Shown: positions 37,702 to 45,405 of the stretch, in pieces
Layout: each line of letters begins with the position of its first letter
Position numbering within the stretch: the first letter of the stretch is position 1
Assembly (NCBI RefSeq): GCF_014132355.1
Contig: NZ_BLZO01000061.1
Span: 1 to 45,405, forward strand
DNA length: 45,405 nt
Direction: 5' to 3'
From: Okeania sp. KiyG1
GTDB taxonomy: Bacteria; Cyanobacteriota; Cyanobacteriia; Cyanobacteriales; Microcoleaceae
Notes under the pieces: model-generated
What the model was told of the DNA's origin: nothing
The model's database searches: none
Seen by the model: only the letters and a program-made list of their open reading frames with translations
Program-made: the position numbers and the translations under genes

Positions 37702-38037
37702 CTAAGGGTTTGATTATATAAATTTGAGGTAACAGTTCCCACACTGGTTACAAGAATCAGATGTGGGCTTCTCAATGACTCGACGTAATTGGTTAGGACA
37801 TAACATAGAGCTTTGTCGATAAAATTCTGCTCTAGGCAGTAAGCCTACTTTCAGTGCCGGGTTTTGAGTTAGCTAAATTGTCGAGAAGCCTCGCGCCAAA
37901 TCAGAGATTATGGCGCGAGATGAATCGGCGGTAAATTAATGGAGTTCAATGCCCCATTAATTTACAAATATTGCTTTTTGCTCAAGACTTCAATTGTTGA
38001 TGTTATCATAACAATGATCGAACTAATGTTGATAGTA

Positions 38038-39456
38038 ATGCGGACGGCTTATCAGTACAAATTAAAGCCTAATAAAGAACAAGTGTCTACCATAGAACTA
38101 TGGCTGGACTTGTTGCGTCGGCAGTACAACTATCGGTTGAGTGAGCGGTTTTCGTGGTGGTCAGAAAATCGCTGTCCGCTTAGTGCTTGTCCTTTAATAA
38201 TGCCAATTCCTCAACTAAGAAATAACCCGGATTATTATTCTCAGAAAAAGATTTAGTCAATACTAAAGATAAATTTCCTGACTACAAGCTAATTCATTCT
38301 CAAGTATTGCAAGATTGTATTAAACGGGTCATTTCAGTTATCAGTTATCAGTTATCAGTTATCAGTACCTCTACAATAAGGAGGCTTAAAATAGGTGATT
38401 TTATTTTTTTTATCCCCTTAAAAAGGGAGGCGCATACCTACAATTGCTCGGTAAAACTTACCTTTGAAAGATGGTTGAAAGCAGATAAAAATGGGCAGAA
38501 ATTAGGAAAACCAAGGTTTAATGGAATAGGTCGTTATCGTAGCTTGATTTACCCTCAAATCAAGCAAGAATGTTTTGAGGTAAATAAGATGAATTTACCT
38601 ACTTTTGGTAAAGTAAAGTTGATTCAACATCGACCATTGCCGTCAGGTTTTAAAATTAAAACCGTTACTATTAGCCGTAAAGCTGATGGCTATTATCTCA
38701 CACTATCCTTAGAATATAAATCGGTTCCTAAATTTAATTCTGATGTCGAACCGACAACAGAAAATACTCTCTTAATCGATATGGGATTGAAAGATTTTTT
38801 GGTAACAAGTGATGGAGATACAATCCTAATACCTCAATATTATCGCTCTCCTCAGAAGCGATTAAAGACTCTAAAAAAACGTTTATCCCGGAAAAAGAAA
38901 GGCAGCAAAAGATGGTTAAAAGCTGTAAAAGCTGTAGCTAAACAACATAAAAAGGTTGCCGATAAACGTAAATATTTTCATTTTAAAACAGCCAATGAAT
39001 TGTTATCACTCATCTGAAGTTATCCAATACGAAAACTTAAATATTAAAGATCTAGCAAAGACCCGTTTGAGTAAATCAATTAATGATGCTGGATGGGGTC
39101 AATTTCTGTCTATTCTTGCTGTCAAAGCCGTTAGCGCAGCTCCTCTGTTTGCGTTTGCGCAGCATCCCGTAGGGAAGCATGACCTAGGAAAAGAGGCAAA
39201 TTCTGGACAAAAAACTATAGCTGTGAATCCTCAAAATACCAGCCAAGATTGCTCGAATTGCGGTGAAAAAGTCCTGAAAGAATTATCTCAAAGAACTCAT
39301 TCTTACCCACACTGCGGTATCGTCATAGACCGCGACTTGAATGCAGCAATAAATATAAAAAATAGGGCGGCGGGGCATCCCGTCCTTAAAGCTCGTGAAG
39401 TCCGATGCAGTGGCAGGACTGCGAAACGAGAAGCCCACACTAAGCTGACGCTATAG
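38038..39456 (+). pseudogene. tnpB: IS200/IS605-family TnpB with two in-frame repeat insertions and frameshifts
   Basis: The ATG at 38038 opens MRTAYQYKLKPNKEQVSTIE. The frame is lost at an A-run near 38250 (QKK, then stop) and again near 39000. RuvC residues are readable: [16 protein letters not shown] (Asp), [12 protein letters not shown] (Glu) and [13 protein letters not shown] (Asp). The zinc finger reads CSNC..SYPHCG, so its third Cys is Tyr. A 123-bp hairpin element (38331-38453, exactly 41 codons) splits CIKRV from KLTFERW. A GTTTGCG-type repeat (about 39130-39200) adds residues before [10 protein letters not shown]. The end abuts dnaA. Inactive. Confidence 0.85.
38331..38453 (+). repeat. 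Heptamer-hairpin element inserted in tnpB
   Basis: It begins ATTTCAG plus TTATCAG heptamers, then TACCTCTACAATAAGG, the hairpin CCCCTTAAAAAGGG, and ends AGGCGCATACCTACAA, TTGCTCGGTA. The broken tnpB frame fixes both borders to within a few bases. At 123 bp it leaves the reading frame open and adds 41 codons. Confidence 0.75.
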
Positions 39457-39462
39457 TGTGGG
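39434..39462 (+). repeat. tnpB right-end hairpin next to dnaA
   Basis: A perfect 9-bp stem, CCCACACTA with TAGTGTGGG, closes a short loop at the end of the tnpB relic. GAGTATGTAA follows, matching the right-end tail of the other tnpB elements. The dnaA start codon is 12 bp further on. Confidence 0.65.
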
Positions 39463-39474
39463 AGTATGTAACCA

Positions 39475-40839
39475 GTGGAAATTTCTCTTGATAATTTGTG
39501 GAACCAAGTTTTAGAAAGATTGCAACTACAATTAAGCCGACCTACTTTTGAAACATGGATTAAAACAGCCAATGCCCAACAACTAGAAAATAACTGTTTG
39601 GTAATTTGTACACCTAACCCTTTTGCCAGAAATTGGTTACAGAAATACTATATAAAAACTATTGCTGATGTTGTACATGATATTCTCGGTCATCCTGTAG
39701 AAATTTACCTAACTACAGCGGGAGAAATTACGGGTAAAGATAATTCAGAACCTATATGGTCGGAAAATAAGGTTGCCGATCTTTCAGAAAGTTTATCTAG
39801 TCAAAAGCCTAAACCAGCAAATCTAAATCCGAAATATATGTTTTCTAGGTTTGTGGTTGGTCCTAATAATCGTATGGCTCATGCAGCTTCTTTAGCAGTA
39901 GCTGAGTCTCCTGGACGAGAGTTTAATCCTTTATTTTTATGTGGTGGAGTGGGTTTAGGAAAAACTCATTTGATGCAAGCTATCGGTCATTATCGTTTGG
40001 AGATTTTGCCTGAATCTCAAATTTTTTATGTTTCTACGGAAAAGTTTACTAATGATTTAATTGTCGCTATTCGTAAAGATAGCCTCCAAAGTTTTAGAGA
40101 ACATTATCGAACCGCTGATGTTTTGTTGGTAGATGATATTCAATTTATTGAGGGTAAAGAATATACTCAAGAAGAGTTTTTTCATACTTTTAATACTTTG
40201 CATGAAGCTGGCAAACAAGTAGTCTTAGCTTCTGATAGACCTCCTAATCAAATTCCTAGTTTACAAGAACGTCTTTGCTCTCGGTTTTCTATGGGATTAA
40301 TTGCTGATATTCAAGCTCCTGATCTGGAAACTAGGATGGCAATTTTGCTGAAAAAATCTGAGTATGAAAATATGGTTTTGCCTAGGGATGTAATTGAGTA
40401 TATTGCCTCTAGATATACTTCAAATATTCGGGAGTTGGAAGGTGCTTTGACTAGGGTTGTTACTTATATTTCTATTTCAGGTTTGCCGATGACTGTGGAG
40501 AATGTCGCACCTATTTTAAATCCACAAAATGAAAAATTAGAGGCATCTCCAGAAGCAGTTATTAAGGCTGTTTCAGAAGTTTTTAATGTGTCTATAGAGG
40601 ATTTAAAAGGAAGTTCTAGAAAACGAGAAATTAGTTTGGCAAGACAAGTGGGAATGTTTTTGATGCGACAACATACTGATTTAAGTCTGCCAAAAATTGG
40701 GGAGGTTTTTGGTGGAAAGGACCATACAACTGTTATATATAGTTGCGATAAGATTGCCCAGCTACAAAATAATGATTTAAACTTAGGTCAAACTCTCAGA
40801 CAGTTGAGCGATCGGATTAATTTTGCCAGTCGTCGTTAG
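39475..40839 (+). CDS. dnaA: Chromosomal replication initiator DnaA
   Basis: DnaA binds DnaA boxes, oligomerises with ATP and opens the origin. All four domains are present in 454 residues. Domain I is at [21 protein letters not shown] short linker follows. Domain III is AAA+ with Walker [10 protein letters not shown] near 157, Walker B LLVDDIQF near 217, the sensor region [13 protein letters not shown] and [10 protein letters not shown]. Domain IV carries the signature [15 protein letters not shown] near 412. The start is GTG at 39475, since no in-frame ATG gives the family N-terminus. GGGAG at 39461 is a weak ribosome site. A tnpB relic ends 18 bp upstream, so the native promoter is displaced or replaced. 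Confidence 0.96.
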
Positions 40840-40873
40840 TCAAAATTCAAAATTCAAAATTCAAAATTCAAAA
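40839..40873. repeat. Tandem heptamer CAAAATT at the dnaA stop
   Basis: About five CAAAATT units start directly after the dnaA stop codon. Confidence 0.85.
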
Positions 40874-40895
40874 GTAATATCTGACTGAGTTTGAG

Positions 40896-41478
40896 CATTT
40901 ATAGAACCCCTAAGTGTATCTTTAATTTTCTCTTTTTTGTCAGGAATGTGATCGCCAATCATCCAAAAGTAGTTTCACGCCTCAAAATTAGACAAGAAGG
41001 AAAACTATAGATTTCACTTATCACGTCAGTAATTAAAATTATTTATTTTAATCAAACAAGTTCCGATTTTCCCCAAATTATTACAAAATATTTCACGCAC
41101 TTGCGTTATTTTGAGGCATTTGGTATCATAGTTTGTACATAAGGTATTGTGCCAATGTTGCGTTTAAAAGTAAAAATTCTGTCTTGAATAAAGCTACAAG
41201 CAAGTATTTACGTTAATATCATCCAGAATATTTACATTTTTGGCAAAGGTGAATCATCTCAAAACGAGAAATTTTAGACAAGTAGAAATGCTTAAGTAAT
41301 TATGGCTATTGACAGATAACAAGTTAATAGAGTAATAAGTTGCGACAGCATGTGAATAGTCCTAAGTTCATAATTTTTCGGTTTCCAGCAACCCTTATAG
41401 TTGTTAGGCTGCGTGAAAACGGCTTTCTGTCAGCCTTTGTATTTCAAGATAAAGCTCCGGTTAGGGGTTCTATAAATG
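40896..41478. mobile_element. 583-bp element with 18-bp perfect inverted ends, in the origin region
   Basis: The left end CATTTATAGAACCCCTAA (40896-40913) is perfectly inverted at 41461-41478. There is no credible ORF and no clear target duplication. Related TTATAGAACCCCTAA is seen at 1322-1336. It lies between dnaA and the first DnaA-box array. Confidence 0.55.
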
Positions 41479-41528
41479 TCCTAACCTATTTGCGTAATGC
41501 TATAACTATGAAATTTGAACTTTAGACT

Positions 41529-41570
41529 TGTGGAAAACTTGTGGAAAACTTGTGGAAAACTTGTGGAAAA
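41529..41570 (-). promoter_or_regulatory. DnaA-box array I: four boxes at 11-bp spacing
   Basis: TGTGGAAAA (TTTTCCACA on the minus strand) occurs at 41529, 41540, 41551 and 41562, as four identical units with an exact 11-bp period. TTTTCCACA is the cyanobacterial form of the DnaA box. The one-turn spacing would place DnaA monomers on one face of the helix. With dnaA and dnaN alongside, this is part of oriC. Confidence 0.8.
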
Positions 41571-41771
41571 ATATAGAATCTGGACGATAATTGGATGGAA
41601 ACAACTATAGTGCTACACAAATGTTTTAGGACATTCCTCTATTCCCTGTTCCCAGGTCTGGTGTTTCCTTGCAACTAAAATTTATTGTTCTAACCAAAAG
41701 AGGTAGTCAGGACTTACGCGGAGATTCTACATATAGGAAGGGCAAATGCCATTCACCCCTACAAGTGGTGA

Positions 41772-41822
41772 TTTGACATACTCCCGACGCTCCCCTACGG
41801 GAGAGCGCGGGATTCTTCAGCC
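41772..41822 (-). repeat. tnpB right-end hairpin
   Basis: On the minus strand: GAATCCCGCGCTCTCCCGTA, then GGGGAGCG and GGGAGTATGTCAAA, overlapping the tnpB stop codon. The right end of an IS200/IS605 element also forms the 3' end of the omega RNA guide. A second copy of the stem is at 43328-43370. Confidence 0.6.
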
Positions 41823-43215
41823 AGAGAAAAACTGACCGCAGTTTTAACAGAAGTGATGTCCTCCTCCTGTGTTGAAAACAATCCTATTTTTTGTATTAGG
41901 AGTGCTGAGTTATAGTCTCTGTCTAATTCCTGTCCACATTTAGCACAGGAATGCCAGCGTTCTGATAAACTTTTAGAGACTTTATTCAGACATTTCCAAC
42001 AATGTTGGGATGTACCTTTTGGGTCTACTTTGATAATTTTTTTGCCTAGTTTCCAGGCTACATACTCCAAAACCTGAACAAACTGCCCAAAAGCTGCATC
42101 TTGCAAAGATTTATTTAATCCTGACTTAGCTGATTGACCATTGGGCAAAAACTGACCATTATCACCCAATTTAGCTTTGCAACGTCTGATTAAATTTGCT
42201 ATTTGCAGGTCTTCTAAAAATATCACCTGACAGTCACTAAATAAATGATAAGCCAGTTTGAATTGCCAATCCAAACGTTGTCTAGCTATTAATTGATGCA
42301 GTCTAGATATTTTACCTTTGAGAATTTTCCAACTCTTTGAATGTTTGTGTTTTTAGCTAATCTCGCCTGAAGTTTAGACAAGCGATGCTCAGAACACCTG
42401 AAAAACTTCGGGACTTCTATAAATTCACCATCACTGGTAACAGCATAGTACAATAATCCTAAATCAATACCTTTTGAGTTATCTTCGGTGGGTTGAATTT
42501 CTGCACGCCTCAAAGGTACAGCTTGATCTTCTATCGTTAAGCTGATATACCATCCATCTGCCGCCCGTATCACTGTACCTGTTTTCACCTTGAATCCTAT
42601 TGGTATTGAACGATTGTAGACAAAGGGGACTAAACCAATCTTTGGTAGATTTATACAAAAACGACCGTTGGCATTTTTGACTATGTTGGCATTTGATAGC
42701 TGAGGATAACTGAAAGAATTATAATAATGCCGACCTTTAAATTTAGGTCTACCACTGGTTTTACCCTTGTGATCAGGTTTGGTAAAGTTATCCATTGTTG
42801 TTTGCACACGCTGGATAACATCTTGCAACACCTGAGAGTGCATCAACTTATACTCAGGGAAAAGTTTTTTAGTCCGTGCTAAATCTGCTAGTTGAACAGT
42901 CTCCCAAACAACATATCCATTAACTGTGTTCGGATGCTTATCTCCTTTCCTTGTTATCGGATTACCAAAAATGTCCTTTTTTCTACCATCTCGTGTTTGT
43001 ACCCTAAATTCAGGGATATTCTGATAAATCTGGTCTACTGGCACCACTGAAACATTAAGAGGACAAGCATTTACTGGTGTGCGTGTTGCTTCAAACCAGT
43101 TTAGCCTTTCAGCTAAACGGTAATTATATTGCTTTCTGGCCATTTCTAACCAATTGGCTATAATTACCGTTTGACTTTTATGGGGTTTTAGCTTGTACTT
43201 GTATTTCAGTAACAT
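41795..43215 (-). pseudogene. tnpB: IS200/IS605-family TnpB, one frameshift
   Basis: The ATG at 43215 opens MLLKYKYKLKPHKSQTVIIA. The gene reads on to LSKLQARLAK, then loses one base in an A-run (GCTAAAAACAC near 42355). It continues in the other frame to 41795. All catalytic parts remain: GIDLGLLYYAVTSDGE (Asp), VIFLEDLQIANL (Glu), the complete zinc finger CWKC..CAKC, and ELDRDYNSAL (Asp). It is the best-preserved tnpB here, about 470 codons including an N-terminal insertion (NPITRKGDKHPNTVNGYVVW). A single base would restore it. No tnpA is present. Confidence 0.85.
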
Positions 43216-43483
43216 GGCAGAATCTACCAGGATTTCTATATTAGTTATTATAATGGCTATGTTAGAAATTTTCAATAGCTATAGCAAACAGGATCTTATG
43301 AAAACCACACACCCTGGCCCGGCTCTCATCCCGACGCTCCCCTACGGGAGAGCGCGGGACTTCCCGCCGGGGAAGTTAAAAGTCAATTTCCGTAAGTCCT
43401 GGTAGTGCTACTGAAACCGAAAAGGTTGCATAACCTCAAAAATACAAGCTAATCCAAAATTTTATTTCAAACCAACAGTGATT

Positions 43484-43568
43484 TTTTCCACAGGTTTTCC
43501 ACAAGCTATTTATTTCTGAAAGCATTGATGTGGTTAAGAGTTTTTTAGAGTTTTCCACATTTTCCACA
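43484..43568 (+). promoter_or_regulatory. DnaA-box cluster II: four boxes upstream of dnaN
   Basis: TTTTCCACA occurs at 43484, 43495, 43551 and 43560. The first two are 11 bp apart and the last two abut. All are on the plus strand, facing array I. An AT-rich stretch follows directly (43569-43612), a candidate unwinding element. Position before dnaN matches oriC in other cyanobacteria. Confidence 0.82.
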
Positions 43569-43612
43569 GATATTAATTTGATATTTTATTACTGATATTT
43601 TTTATCCAATGC
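43569..43612. other. AT-rich candidate DNA unwinding element
   Basis: About 44 bp of mostly A/T (GATATTAATTTGATATTTTA and onward) lies directly beside DnaA-box cluster II, the usual place for origin melting. Composition and position are the only evidence. Confidence 0.4.
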
Positions 43613-43712
43613 TAGATATCTAGATTCCTCAAGTTAAGAATGTTAGGATTTCAGTCTGAGGTAAGTTTTCTCAAAAAAGCCTCTTGTTCCTTATATAACT
43701 AGCTAAACTCTA

Positions 43713-44867
43713 ATGAAATTAACTTGTACTCAAAGTGACTTAAATAGTAATCTTTCTCTAGTCAGTCGCGCAGTTCCTTCTCGACCTACTCACCCAGTAT
43801 TGGCAAATGTTTTATTAATAGCAGATGTAGAAAATCAGTGCTTAGAATTAACAGGGTTTGACTTAAGTTTAGGTATTCGTTCAAATTTTCCAGCAGTTGT
43901 AGAAACAGGTGGGAGTTTTACTTTACCTGCCAAATTATTTAATGATATTGTCTCCAGATTACCAGACGGTAATATTACTATTGATGATGATGAAGGGGAA
44001 GCGATCGCTACTCTTACTTCTACGTCTGGACGTTATGAAGTCCGAGGTATGGGAGGGGAGGAATATCCAGAGTTACCAAAGGTGGAAGATGGGGAGGTTA
44101 TACATTTACCATCGGAAGCTTTAATTAATGGTTTAAAGGGAACTTTGTTTGCCACGAGTCCTGATGAAACAAAACAAGTTTTAACAGGGGTACATTTAAA
44201 GGTACAAAAAGATGGTTTGGAATTTGCAGCAACTGATGGTCATAGATTAGCAATTGTTAAGACTGAAAGTGTGGCACCAGAGGGTGAGTTAGAAGTAGAA
44301 GAAATTGAGGAGTTTGAAGTAACAATTCCTGCAAAAGCTTTACGAGAAGTTGAACGAATGATTGGAATGGATCAATCATCTGAAGCTGTTGCTTTGAGAT
44401 TTGATGAAGGTCAGGTAATTTTTGAGCTAGGAGAACAATGTTTAACTAGCAGAAAATTGGAGGGTCAATATCCAGCTTACGGACAATTATTACCTGATAA
44501 GTTTACTAATCAAATTAATGTAGATAGGAAAGAATTTTTAGGAGCGGTGGAAAGAATTGCTGTTTTGGCTGACCAGAAAAATAATATTTTGAAGTGTTCT
44601 ATTGATAGTGTTAATCAGGAGATTTATTTGTCTGTAGATGCTCAAGATGTTGGTAGTGGTAGAGAGTCTATGGCAGCACAAATTTCTGCTGATGAGCCGA
44701 ATGAAATTGCTTTTAATGTTAAGTATTTGATTGAAGGTTTGAAGGCTATTCCTTCAGCTTCGGAGATTTCTATTCAGTTAAATACTGCTACAAGTCCGGT
44801 GGTTTTAAATCCATTGGGTGGGGTGAAAATGACTTATTTAATTATGCCTGTTCAGTTGAGAAATTAG
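43713..44867 (+). CDS. dnaN: DNA polymerase III beta subunit (sliding clamp)
   Basis: The beta clamp is a ring dimer that tethers polymerase to DNA. The 384-residue protein has the three-fold clamp repeat: domain 1 begins MKLTCTQSDLNSNLSLVSRA, with NVLLIADVENQCLELTGFDL. Domain 2 includes VHLKVQKDGLEFAATDGHRL. Domain 3 ends in VVLNPLGGVKMTYLIMPVQL, matching the conserved MPVQ/MPMR end. The ATG at 43713 is certain from the N-terminus. No clear Shine-Dalgarno is seen. It lies about 145 bp downstream of DnaA-box cluster II and could be controlled by DnaA occupancy. Confidence 0.97.
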   Translation: MKLTCTQSDLNSNLSLVSRAVPSRPTHPVLANVLLIADVENQCLELTGFDLSLGIRSNFPAVVETGGSFTLPAKLFNDIVSRLPDGNITIDDDEGEAIATLTSTSGRYEVRGMGGEEYPELPKVEDGEVIHLPSEALINGLKGTLFATSPDETKQVLTGVHLKVQKDGLEFAATDGHRLAIVKTESVAPEGELEVEEIEEFEVTIPAKALREVERMIGMDQSSEAVALRFDEGQVIFELGEQCLTSRKLEGQYPAYGQLLPDKFTNQINVDRKEFLGAVERIAVLADQKNNILKCSIDSVNQEIYLSVDAQDVGSGRESMAAQISADEPNEIAFNVKYLIEGLKAIPSASEISIQLNTATSPVVLNPLGGVKMTYLIMPVQLRN

Positions 44868-44897
44868 TTGCTTCAAGTGATTTTTAAATCGTAAGTT

Positions 44898-45146
44898 GTA
44901 AGCATTTAGCCGTCAGCTATTAGCTAGCCTCCTACGGAGGAACTACGTTAACAGCTATTAATTTTGGGGAAGGTAAAAATAATTGAGAAATTGAGACAAA
45001 ATGAGACAAAATAAAAATTACTGTTAAAGTTCCTTTCCTAAACCTTAGAAGTAATTGTTCATTACTAATTGCTGTTTGCGTAGCATGACCTAGGAATAGC
45101 GGACTGCTAATAGCTGTTTGCGCAGCAGTCCGCAGGAAATGCTTAC
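44898..45146. mobile_element. MITE, GTAAGCATTCAGC family, 249 bp, downstream of dnaN
   Basis: It begins GTAAGCATTTAGCCGTCAGC and ends AAATGCTTAC, flanked by CGTAAGTT and CCTAAGTT (7 of 8 match). It contains palindromic GTTTGCG-type repeats near 45072-45137. Confidence 0.7.
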
Positions 45147-45238
45147 CCTAAGTTTATCGTGGCAGATTGGATGATTTTATATGTCTAAATTTGCCCGATT
45201 TTTTTTAAGGGAGTATCTGCTAAATATAGTCATATTAT

Positions 45239-45405
45239 GTAAGCATTCAGCCGTCAGCTATCAGCTATCAGCTATTTATTTTAGCTTGAAAGAAAACCTT
45301 TATTAATGAGGTGAATTGAATTTTACTATAAAAGCCGATTTTTAAAGGCTATATTCATTTAAAACCCCTCCTTAAGATTTAGATAGGGTTTGCTGTTTGC
45401 GTAGC
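45239..45405. repeat. Start of another GTAAGCATTCAGC element and of a TAGGGTTTGCT element
   Basis: GTAAGCATTCAGCCGTCAGC begins at 45239. No right end is seen before the window closes. TAGGGTTTGCTGTTTGCG begins at 45384, a left terminus of the other family. No gene is seen from 44868 to the end. Confidence 0.5.

Follow-up and report, generated by a model that had tools for sequence, protein, structure and literature searches.

It is already known that insertion sequences can lie in oriC, that origins can be bipartite, and that a cyanobacterial dnaA can be disrupted by a transposon (PMC3701491, PMC7198777). The bipartite origins described for B. subtilis, H. pylori, and C. difficile have two separated DnaA-box regions, one of them with the unwinding site, and looping out of the intervening DNA is ascribed to DnaA (PMC7561715, PMC6669920). 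Both halves are reported to be essential in vivo in B. subtilis and H. pylori; for B. subtilis, looping is the proposed means by which the distal boxes increase DnaA locally, their position is described as permissive, and DnaA overexpression is reported to rescue their deletion (PMC6669920). In M. tuberculosis, the dnaA–dnaN origin region is a listed hot spot for IS6110, with a copy at this place serving as a marker of the Beijing family (PMC3701491); according to a title in the reference list of that paper, the origin-region copy affects growth. Predicted oriC adjoins dnaN in 55 of 68 cyanobacterial species, and a DnaA-box cluster at this place is the rule (PMC4674748). The dnaA gene is reported to be dispensable in Synechocystis 6803 and Synechococcus 7002, Nostoc 7120 to replicate independently of DnaA, and dnaA of Nostoc azollae to be disrupted by a transposon (PMC7198777). 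In our searches of the open-licence literature, we found nothing on an insertion sequence in oriC DnaA boxes or a transposon in a cyanobacterial dnaA–dnaN intergenic region, nothing by title on Okeania dnaA or on mobile elements of Okeania genomes, and no graded series within one genus that combines a nested insert between clusters with a displaced dnaA leader.

The dnaA–dnaN interval of the window

The window is the whole stretch of DNA that was analyzed, a contig of 45,405 bp (C61) from the draft genome of Okeania sp. KiyG1 (10.98 Mb in 198 contigs, 92.36% complete). A near-mode search of the plasmid collection gave no match to it. Positions 44143–45405 are identical over 1263 bases to the left end of contig C166 (L025 1–1263), so the two contigs probably join downstream of dnaN. 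The following features were assigned.

37879–39472, plus strand: diverged IS605-type tnpB element; left edge approximate, right end about 2 bp before the dnaA GTG
39475–40839, plus strand: dnaA, 454 codons, GTG start, intact; Pfam Bac_DnaA, Bac_DnaA_C, and DnaA_N
40902–41472, no strand: inverted-repeat element with ends TAGAACCCCTAA / TTAGGGGTTCTA and a TA duplication
41529–41570, minus strand: dnaA-side DnaA-box cluster, four TTTTCCACA in an 11-bp tandem repeat
41529–41537, 41540–41548, 41551–41559, and 41562–41570, minus strand: the dnaA-side boxes TTTTCCACA
41703–41707, no strand: left GTAGT target-site duplication of the MITE (a single GTAGT in relatives G004 and G005)
41708–41772, no strand: left part of the MITE, with the inverted end CAGGACTTACG
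41773–43375, minus strand: IS605-type tnpB element inside the MITE, 1603 bp; HTH_OrfB_IS605 and Cas12f1-like_TNB in two frames
43376–43401, no strand: right part of the MITE, terminating in CGTAAGTCCTG
43402–43406, no strand: right GTAGT target-site duplication
43484–43568, plus strand: dnaN-side DnaA-box module, four TTTTCCACA with start spacings 11/56/9
43484–43492, 43495–43503, 43551–43559, and 43560–43568, plus strand: the dnaN-side boxes TTTTCCACA
43562–43611, plus strand: AT-rich stretch, candidate unwinding element, up to 85% A+T per 40 bp
43713–44867, plus strand: dnaN, with Pfam DNA_pol3_beta domains

As the sequence-only reading had described, two DnaA-box clusters face each other between dnaA and dnaN. 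One consists of four minus-strand and the other of four plus-strand copies of TTTTCCACA. They are 1913 bp apart, and removal of 41708–43406 (1699 bp) leaves 214 bp between them, in agreement with the earlier estimate of about 215 bp. The locus has the TTTTCCACA cluster adjoining dnaN that is typical of cyanobacterial oriC and, as in a bipartite oriC, two separated clusters; the spacer of bipartite origins is usually the dnaA gene, whereas the Okeania spacer is mobile DNA. The AT-rich stretch at 43562–43611 overlaps the last dnaN-side box and extends past it. A crude scan for a DnaA-trio in 41481–41707 and 43481–43712 detected on neither strand a run of at least four [CT]T[AT] triplets.

The looser box TTWTNCACA matched the window 13 times against 5.72 expected, a count reached by none of 100 shuffles, and eight of these matches fall in the dnaA–dnaN interval. 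Paired TTTTCCACA boxes, 2–30 bp apart on the same strand, gave seven matches in the draft genome, four of them at this locus; the reversed control of this pattern gave none in the 10.98-Mb draft. The remaining matches are on contigs C93 (two matches, from three boxes) and C55 (one match, from two boxes), at places where the ORF lists, inspected by eye, include neither dnaA nor dnaN. The place on C93 has three TTTTCCACA in 42 bp, away from dnaA and dnaN (L208 2225–2266, G000 C93:33724–33765), and is flanked by a WD40-repeat-like ORF and a PEP-CTERM-like ORF, both named by eye.

GC skew shifted clearly in the E. coli K-12 control (p 0.0004, 49-kb arms). No significant shift was seen in the 79-kb join of the window's own contigs (35-kb arms, permutation p 0.12, expected sign), in the 598-kb contig of relative G004 (p 0.13–0.37, expected sign), or in 400 kb of G044 (p 0.10–0.58, opposite sign). 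Local GC skew is uninformative here, neither supporting nor excluding an origin at dnaA–dnaN. We take Okeania and Trichodesmium to belong to clade A. Clade-A cyanobacteria are reported to be without a V-shaped skew (PMC7198777).

Mobile elements around dnaA and between the clusters

The sequence-only reading had placed one 1.7-kb element with a GTAGT duplication and a tnpB between the clusters. Both the duplication and the tnpB are present, and the insert is a composite, a 91-bp MITE holding a 1603-bp tnpB element. The inverted ends CAGGACTTACG and CGTAAGTCCTG lie directly inside the two GTAGT copies, and the duplication sits outside the MITE ends, not at the ends of the tnpB element. A genome search with the 1.7-kb element returned three other full copies, all confined to 41772–43380 and differing from 41773–43375 by no mismatches and 2–3 gap positions. 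The left part of the MITE had at least 13 short matches elsewhere in the genome (among the 40 of 494 candidates that were scored). Since the full copies end at the tnpB element and the outer left part matches other places, we infer that a MITE was struck by the tnpB element. The size of the 91-bp element, its terminal inverted repeats, target duplication, multiple matches, and lack of a transposase are those of a MITE. Five elements with the same ends occurred among the loci examined, two of which (92 and 93 bp, both in G004) have exact 5-bp duplications; a strict pattern search found no uninterrupted copy of the exact MITE pattern in the window's own genome.

The ends of the tnpB element recur in copies with unrelated flanks, and these copies have common ends, a TTAA flank on one side and TTGACATAC on the other. 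Close to each end, the element carries the same 31-bp sequence (41782–41812 and 43329–43359), which is partly self-complementary. The element resembles IS200/IS605 elements of the tnpB-only kind in its domains (PF12323 and PF07282) and in that no target-site duplication of its own was seen when the flanks of the window copy and of L002–L004, L008, and L009 were inspected by eye; no tnpA was among the domains detected. It differs from them in the broken reading frame of the window copy. The frame is also broken, at other positions, in the other three copies, and because the copies differ by gaps only, these breaks are possibly sequencing errors. The near-identity of the nested copy to the others points to a recent insertion, and its survival is for that reason little guide to long-term cost.

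Closer to dnaA, the sequence-only reading had noted an inverted-repeat element of 583 bp. A repeated element is indeed there, at a corrected size of 571 bp if the duplication is TA, or 567 bp if it is TATA, and three further genome copies are 93.6–95% identical to it. On the other side of dnaA, the homology of the window to its relatives stops at 37872–37878, left of the diverged tnpB element, and matches of this element to other copies stop at 39469–39473, the longest being 72–77% identical. In the window, 0.55–0.9 kb of the relatives' dnaA-upstream sequence is replaced. The dnaA leader common to G001, G003, G004, and G005 is missing upstream of the window dnaA, and the search for it in the window's own draft returned nothing beyond one 44-bp match of 82% identity. 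A simple scan of 38900–39520 found no plus-strand promoter-like site.

The genus search yielded five relatives (G001–G005) besides the window's own genome. The empty site that was looked for is present in three of the five, G003, G004, and G005, where both insertion sites are empty; the sites were not comparable in G001, which matches the window over 109 bp of the dnaN-side module only, or in G002, whose contig ends 537 bp before dnaN. In G003, G004, and G005, the site of the 571-bp element reads GAGCATTTATAAATGTCC and the MITE site reads CCAAAAGA-N-GTAGTGCTA; GTAGT occurs there once in G004 and G005, and G003 has GTAAT instead. These alignments support the view that the window elements are lineage-specific insertions. 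The insert as a fixed functional part was also considered, and rejected on its absence from G003, G004, and G005.

Intervals in these relatives carry other additions. Ahead of the dnaA-side cluster, G003 and G005 have extra stretches at a single place; further extra sequence lies in G003 between the clusters and before dnaN, its dnaA–dnaN interval being 1,219 bp; and G004 has about 1.7 kb extra between the dnaN-side module and dnaN. The G001 interval is 2984 bp, with 2.5 kb from the last box to dnaN. Enlarged intervals were also observed at L089 (Moorena bouillonii, 3217 bp, of which 2.9 kb separate the last plus-strand box from dnaN) and L073 (Nostoc sp. JL34, 4376 bp, of which 4.1 kb do so). 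In four genus-g11 relatives (L204, L205, L206, and L207, from G056, G055, G061, and G060, respectively), pieces of dnaN lie up to kilobases apart, and all four stretches have group II intron matches (Rfam RF00029). Introns in Trichodesmium dnaN are already known.

IS6110, an IS3-family element, has a different host; the Okeania insert is a nested MITE and tnpB element, at a locus where one box cluster is lost or decayed in relatives. Both are tolerated, lineage-marking insertions in a dnaA–dnaN origin region (PMC3701491). The expectation of the sequence-only reading that an insertion in oriC is rarely tolerated is not supported in that form, given the IS6110 hot spot in this region of M. tuberculosis (PMC3701491) and the dnaA–dnaN intervals of the window, G003, G004, and G005, all of which have stretches absent from another member.

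Unequal conservation of the two clusters

Eight sequences were aligned: the window, G001–G005, G057, and G008. In interval length and box positions, G008 agrees with L050 (Trichodesmium sp. MAG) and G057 with L051 (Okeania sp. SIO3I5). In the dnaN-side module, all 36 box columns are invariant, compared with 46 of 149 other columns (Fisher p 8e-16), and the four-box spacing 11/54–56/9 is kept in all eight, that is, in all six genus members and in G057 and G008. None of the eight has an insert inside the module; insertion events being few, this is weak evidence alone, and base-level conservation carries the argument. The last box is 143–146 bp from dnaN in five of the eight sequences. G001 ceases to match the window about 24 bp past the last box and thus has a different AT-rich stretch on that side.

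Perfect boxes of the dnaA-side cluster number four in the window, three in G003, two (plus one mutated) in G005, and none of two in G004; no dnaA-side boxes were found in G001, in G057, or in the 309 bp read of G002. By this comparison, the two clusters are not equivalent, and the dnaN-side one is the conserved part in the Okeania/Trichodesmium group.

A more distant set was drawn from the best 80 of 584 dnaA loci. Twenty-four had dnaN downstream in the sequence examined, three of these repeated G003, G008, and G057, and 21 remained. Minus-strand boxes followed by plus-strand boxes 9–114 bp away were present in 16 of these 21 loci from outside Okeania/Trichodesmium, at 20 bp or less in 12 of the 16, and the other five have no minus-strand box ahead of the plus-strand boxes. 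The module spacing was full in two loci, partial (53–55 step) in eight, and neither in 11. The same-family set comprised 22 loci (L028–L049), one without a dnaN start, 13 with dnaA adjacent, and eight without dnaA in the sequence examined; its 13 dnaA-adjacent loci may overlap with the 21 distant loci. All 13 have at least one plus-strand box, and 12 have minus-strand boxes 58–149 bp ahead. No perfect TTTTCCACA was present in the 1.5 kb before dnaN in five of the eight loci without dnaA (L034, L040, L042, L044, and L047), which suggests that some members of the family may have relocated or lost the dnaN-side origin. Going by these loci, the exact four-box module is not universal: 11 of the 21 distant loci are without the 53–55 step, and within the family it is not universal either.

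Gaps between the clusters in the Okeania/Trichodesmium group are 226 bp in G005, 334 bp in G008, 435 bp in G003, and 1913 bp in the window. Where dnaA adjoins dnaN, the clusters usually face each other at less than 150 bp, from which it appears that the gap widened in the Okeania lineage. The Okeania tandem boxes may derive from the same ancestral boxes as, or from, the minus-strand boxes seen at the other loci.

Readings of the split origin

We consider it probable that the dnaA–dnaN interval is the usual cyanobacterial oriC, with the dnaN-side module as its core, the facing cluster as a dispensable accessory, and the mobile elements outside the core. The core would consist of the four dnaN-side boxes and the adjoining AT-rich stretch. 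The 571-bp element, the 91-bp MITE with its GTAGT duplication, and recently the tnpB element within the MITE would all have landed outside it, displacing the accessory dnaA-side cluster to 1.9 kb. The dnaN-side module alone may open the origin and load the replisome, or DnaA at the distant cluster may still assist by looping, as in bipartite origins; in either case, the insertion would cost little. The accessory cluster would be a DnaA-loading site that tolerates distance or loss. Several results weigh against this reading: no skew shift was significant although the E. coli control responded, the simple scan gave no DnaA-trio run, the module is not universal, and the AT-rich flank differs in G001. 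The two halves essential in B. subtilis and H. pylori differ in this respect from the Okeania locus, whose distal part is lost in relatives, and the absence or degradation of the distal cluster in several relatives argues against both clusters being needed. The suggestion of the sequence-only reading that one cluster alone suffices fits best, with the dnaN-side module invariant and the dnaA-side cluster decayed or missing in several relatives.

Dependence on DnaA and oriC may instead have been lost or relaxed in Okeania, with initiation at other or many sites and elements accumulating around dnaA and its boxes. We regard this as a genuine possibility, if a rather unlikely one. Four of the five genus members with a complete interval have stretches that another member is without; the remaining one, G001, has an interval of 2984 bp that resembles the window over just the 109 bp noted above. 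The conserved leader was not found in the draft, an IS end lies about 2 bp ahead of the GTG of dnaA, and no skew shift was significant. On the other side, dN/dS of the window dnaA against six relatives is 0.08–0.13, and of the eight codon changes peculiar to the window among five Okeania, two are nonsynonymous, so that dnaA, as far as codon comparisons indicate, is intact and under purifying selection. The perfect dnaN-side boxes in eight of eight sequences, and the equally perfect dnaA-side cluster of the window, also speak against relaxed dependence. Intact dnaA does not settle the matter, since the gene is retained in Synechocystis 6803 and Synechococcus 7002 although it is dispensable there. 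These two strains and Nostoc 7120, all reported to be independent of DnaA–oriC, resemble Okeania in retaining dnaA (PMC7198777), and no regular skew was seen locally in Okeania; the precedent of the transposon-disrupted dnaA in Nostoc azollae points the same way. In Okeania, by contrast, DnaA independence is only a candidate reading.

Tentatively, and with somewhat less conviction still, we suggest that Okeania could be midway in losing DnaA–oriC control, mobile elements having replaced the dnaA leader and split the origin, with dnaA and the core boxes so far preserved intact. If so, related strains would form a graded series, from a closer-spaced through a split to a single-cluster origin.

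That the dnaN-side boxes are kept mainly as a DnaA-responsive regulator of dnaN, and not as an origin, seems improbable to us. DnaA also acts as a transcription factor (PMC8203912), and the nearly constant 143–146 bp between last box and dnaN in five of the eight aligned sequences would suit such a role, but the boxes are intact even where they now lie 1.8 kb (G004) or 2.5 kb (G001) from dnaN, distances that would uncouple a regulator, and predicted oriC lies beside dnaN in most cyanobacterial species surveyed (55 of 68; PMC4674748). An assembly artefact, or an insertion on only some chromosome copies, is very improbable: the 1.6-kb element does occur near-identically elsewhere in the genome and the contig shares 1263 identical bases with another, but the sequences on either side of the insert adjoin each other in relatives, the two MITE parts with their inverted ends and the target duplication make a consistent whole, and copies that differ by gaps without mismatch suggest long reads spanning the repeat.

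The Okeania strains offer a natural series from which to learn which components of a cyanobacterial origin are important. The series may also show how a lineage near Trichodesmium, which is polyploid according to the title of a paper cited in PMC7198777, might drift from DnaA–oriC control. For the Okeania/Trichodesmium group, the comparison indicates that it is the dnaN-side box module that is conserved, rather than the cluster facing it.
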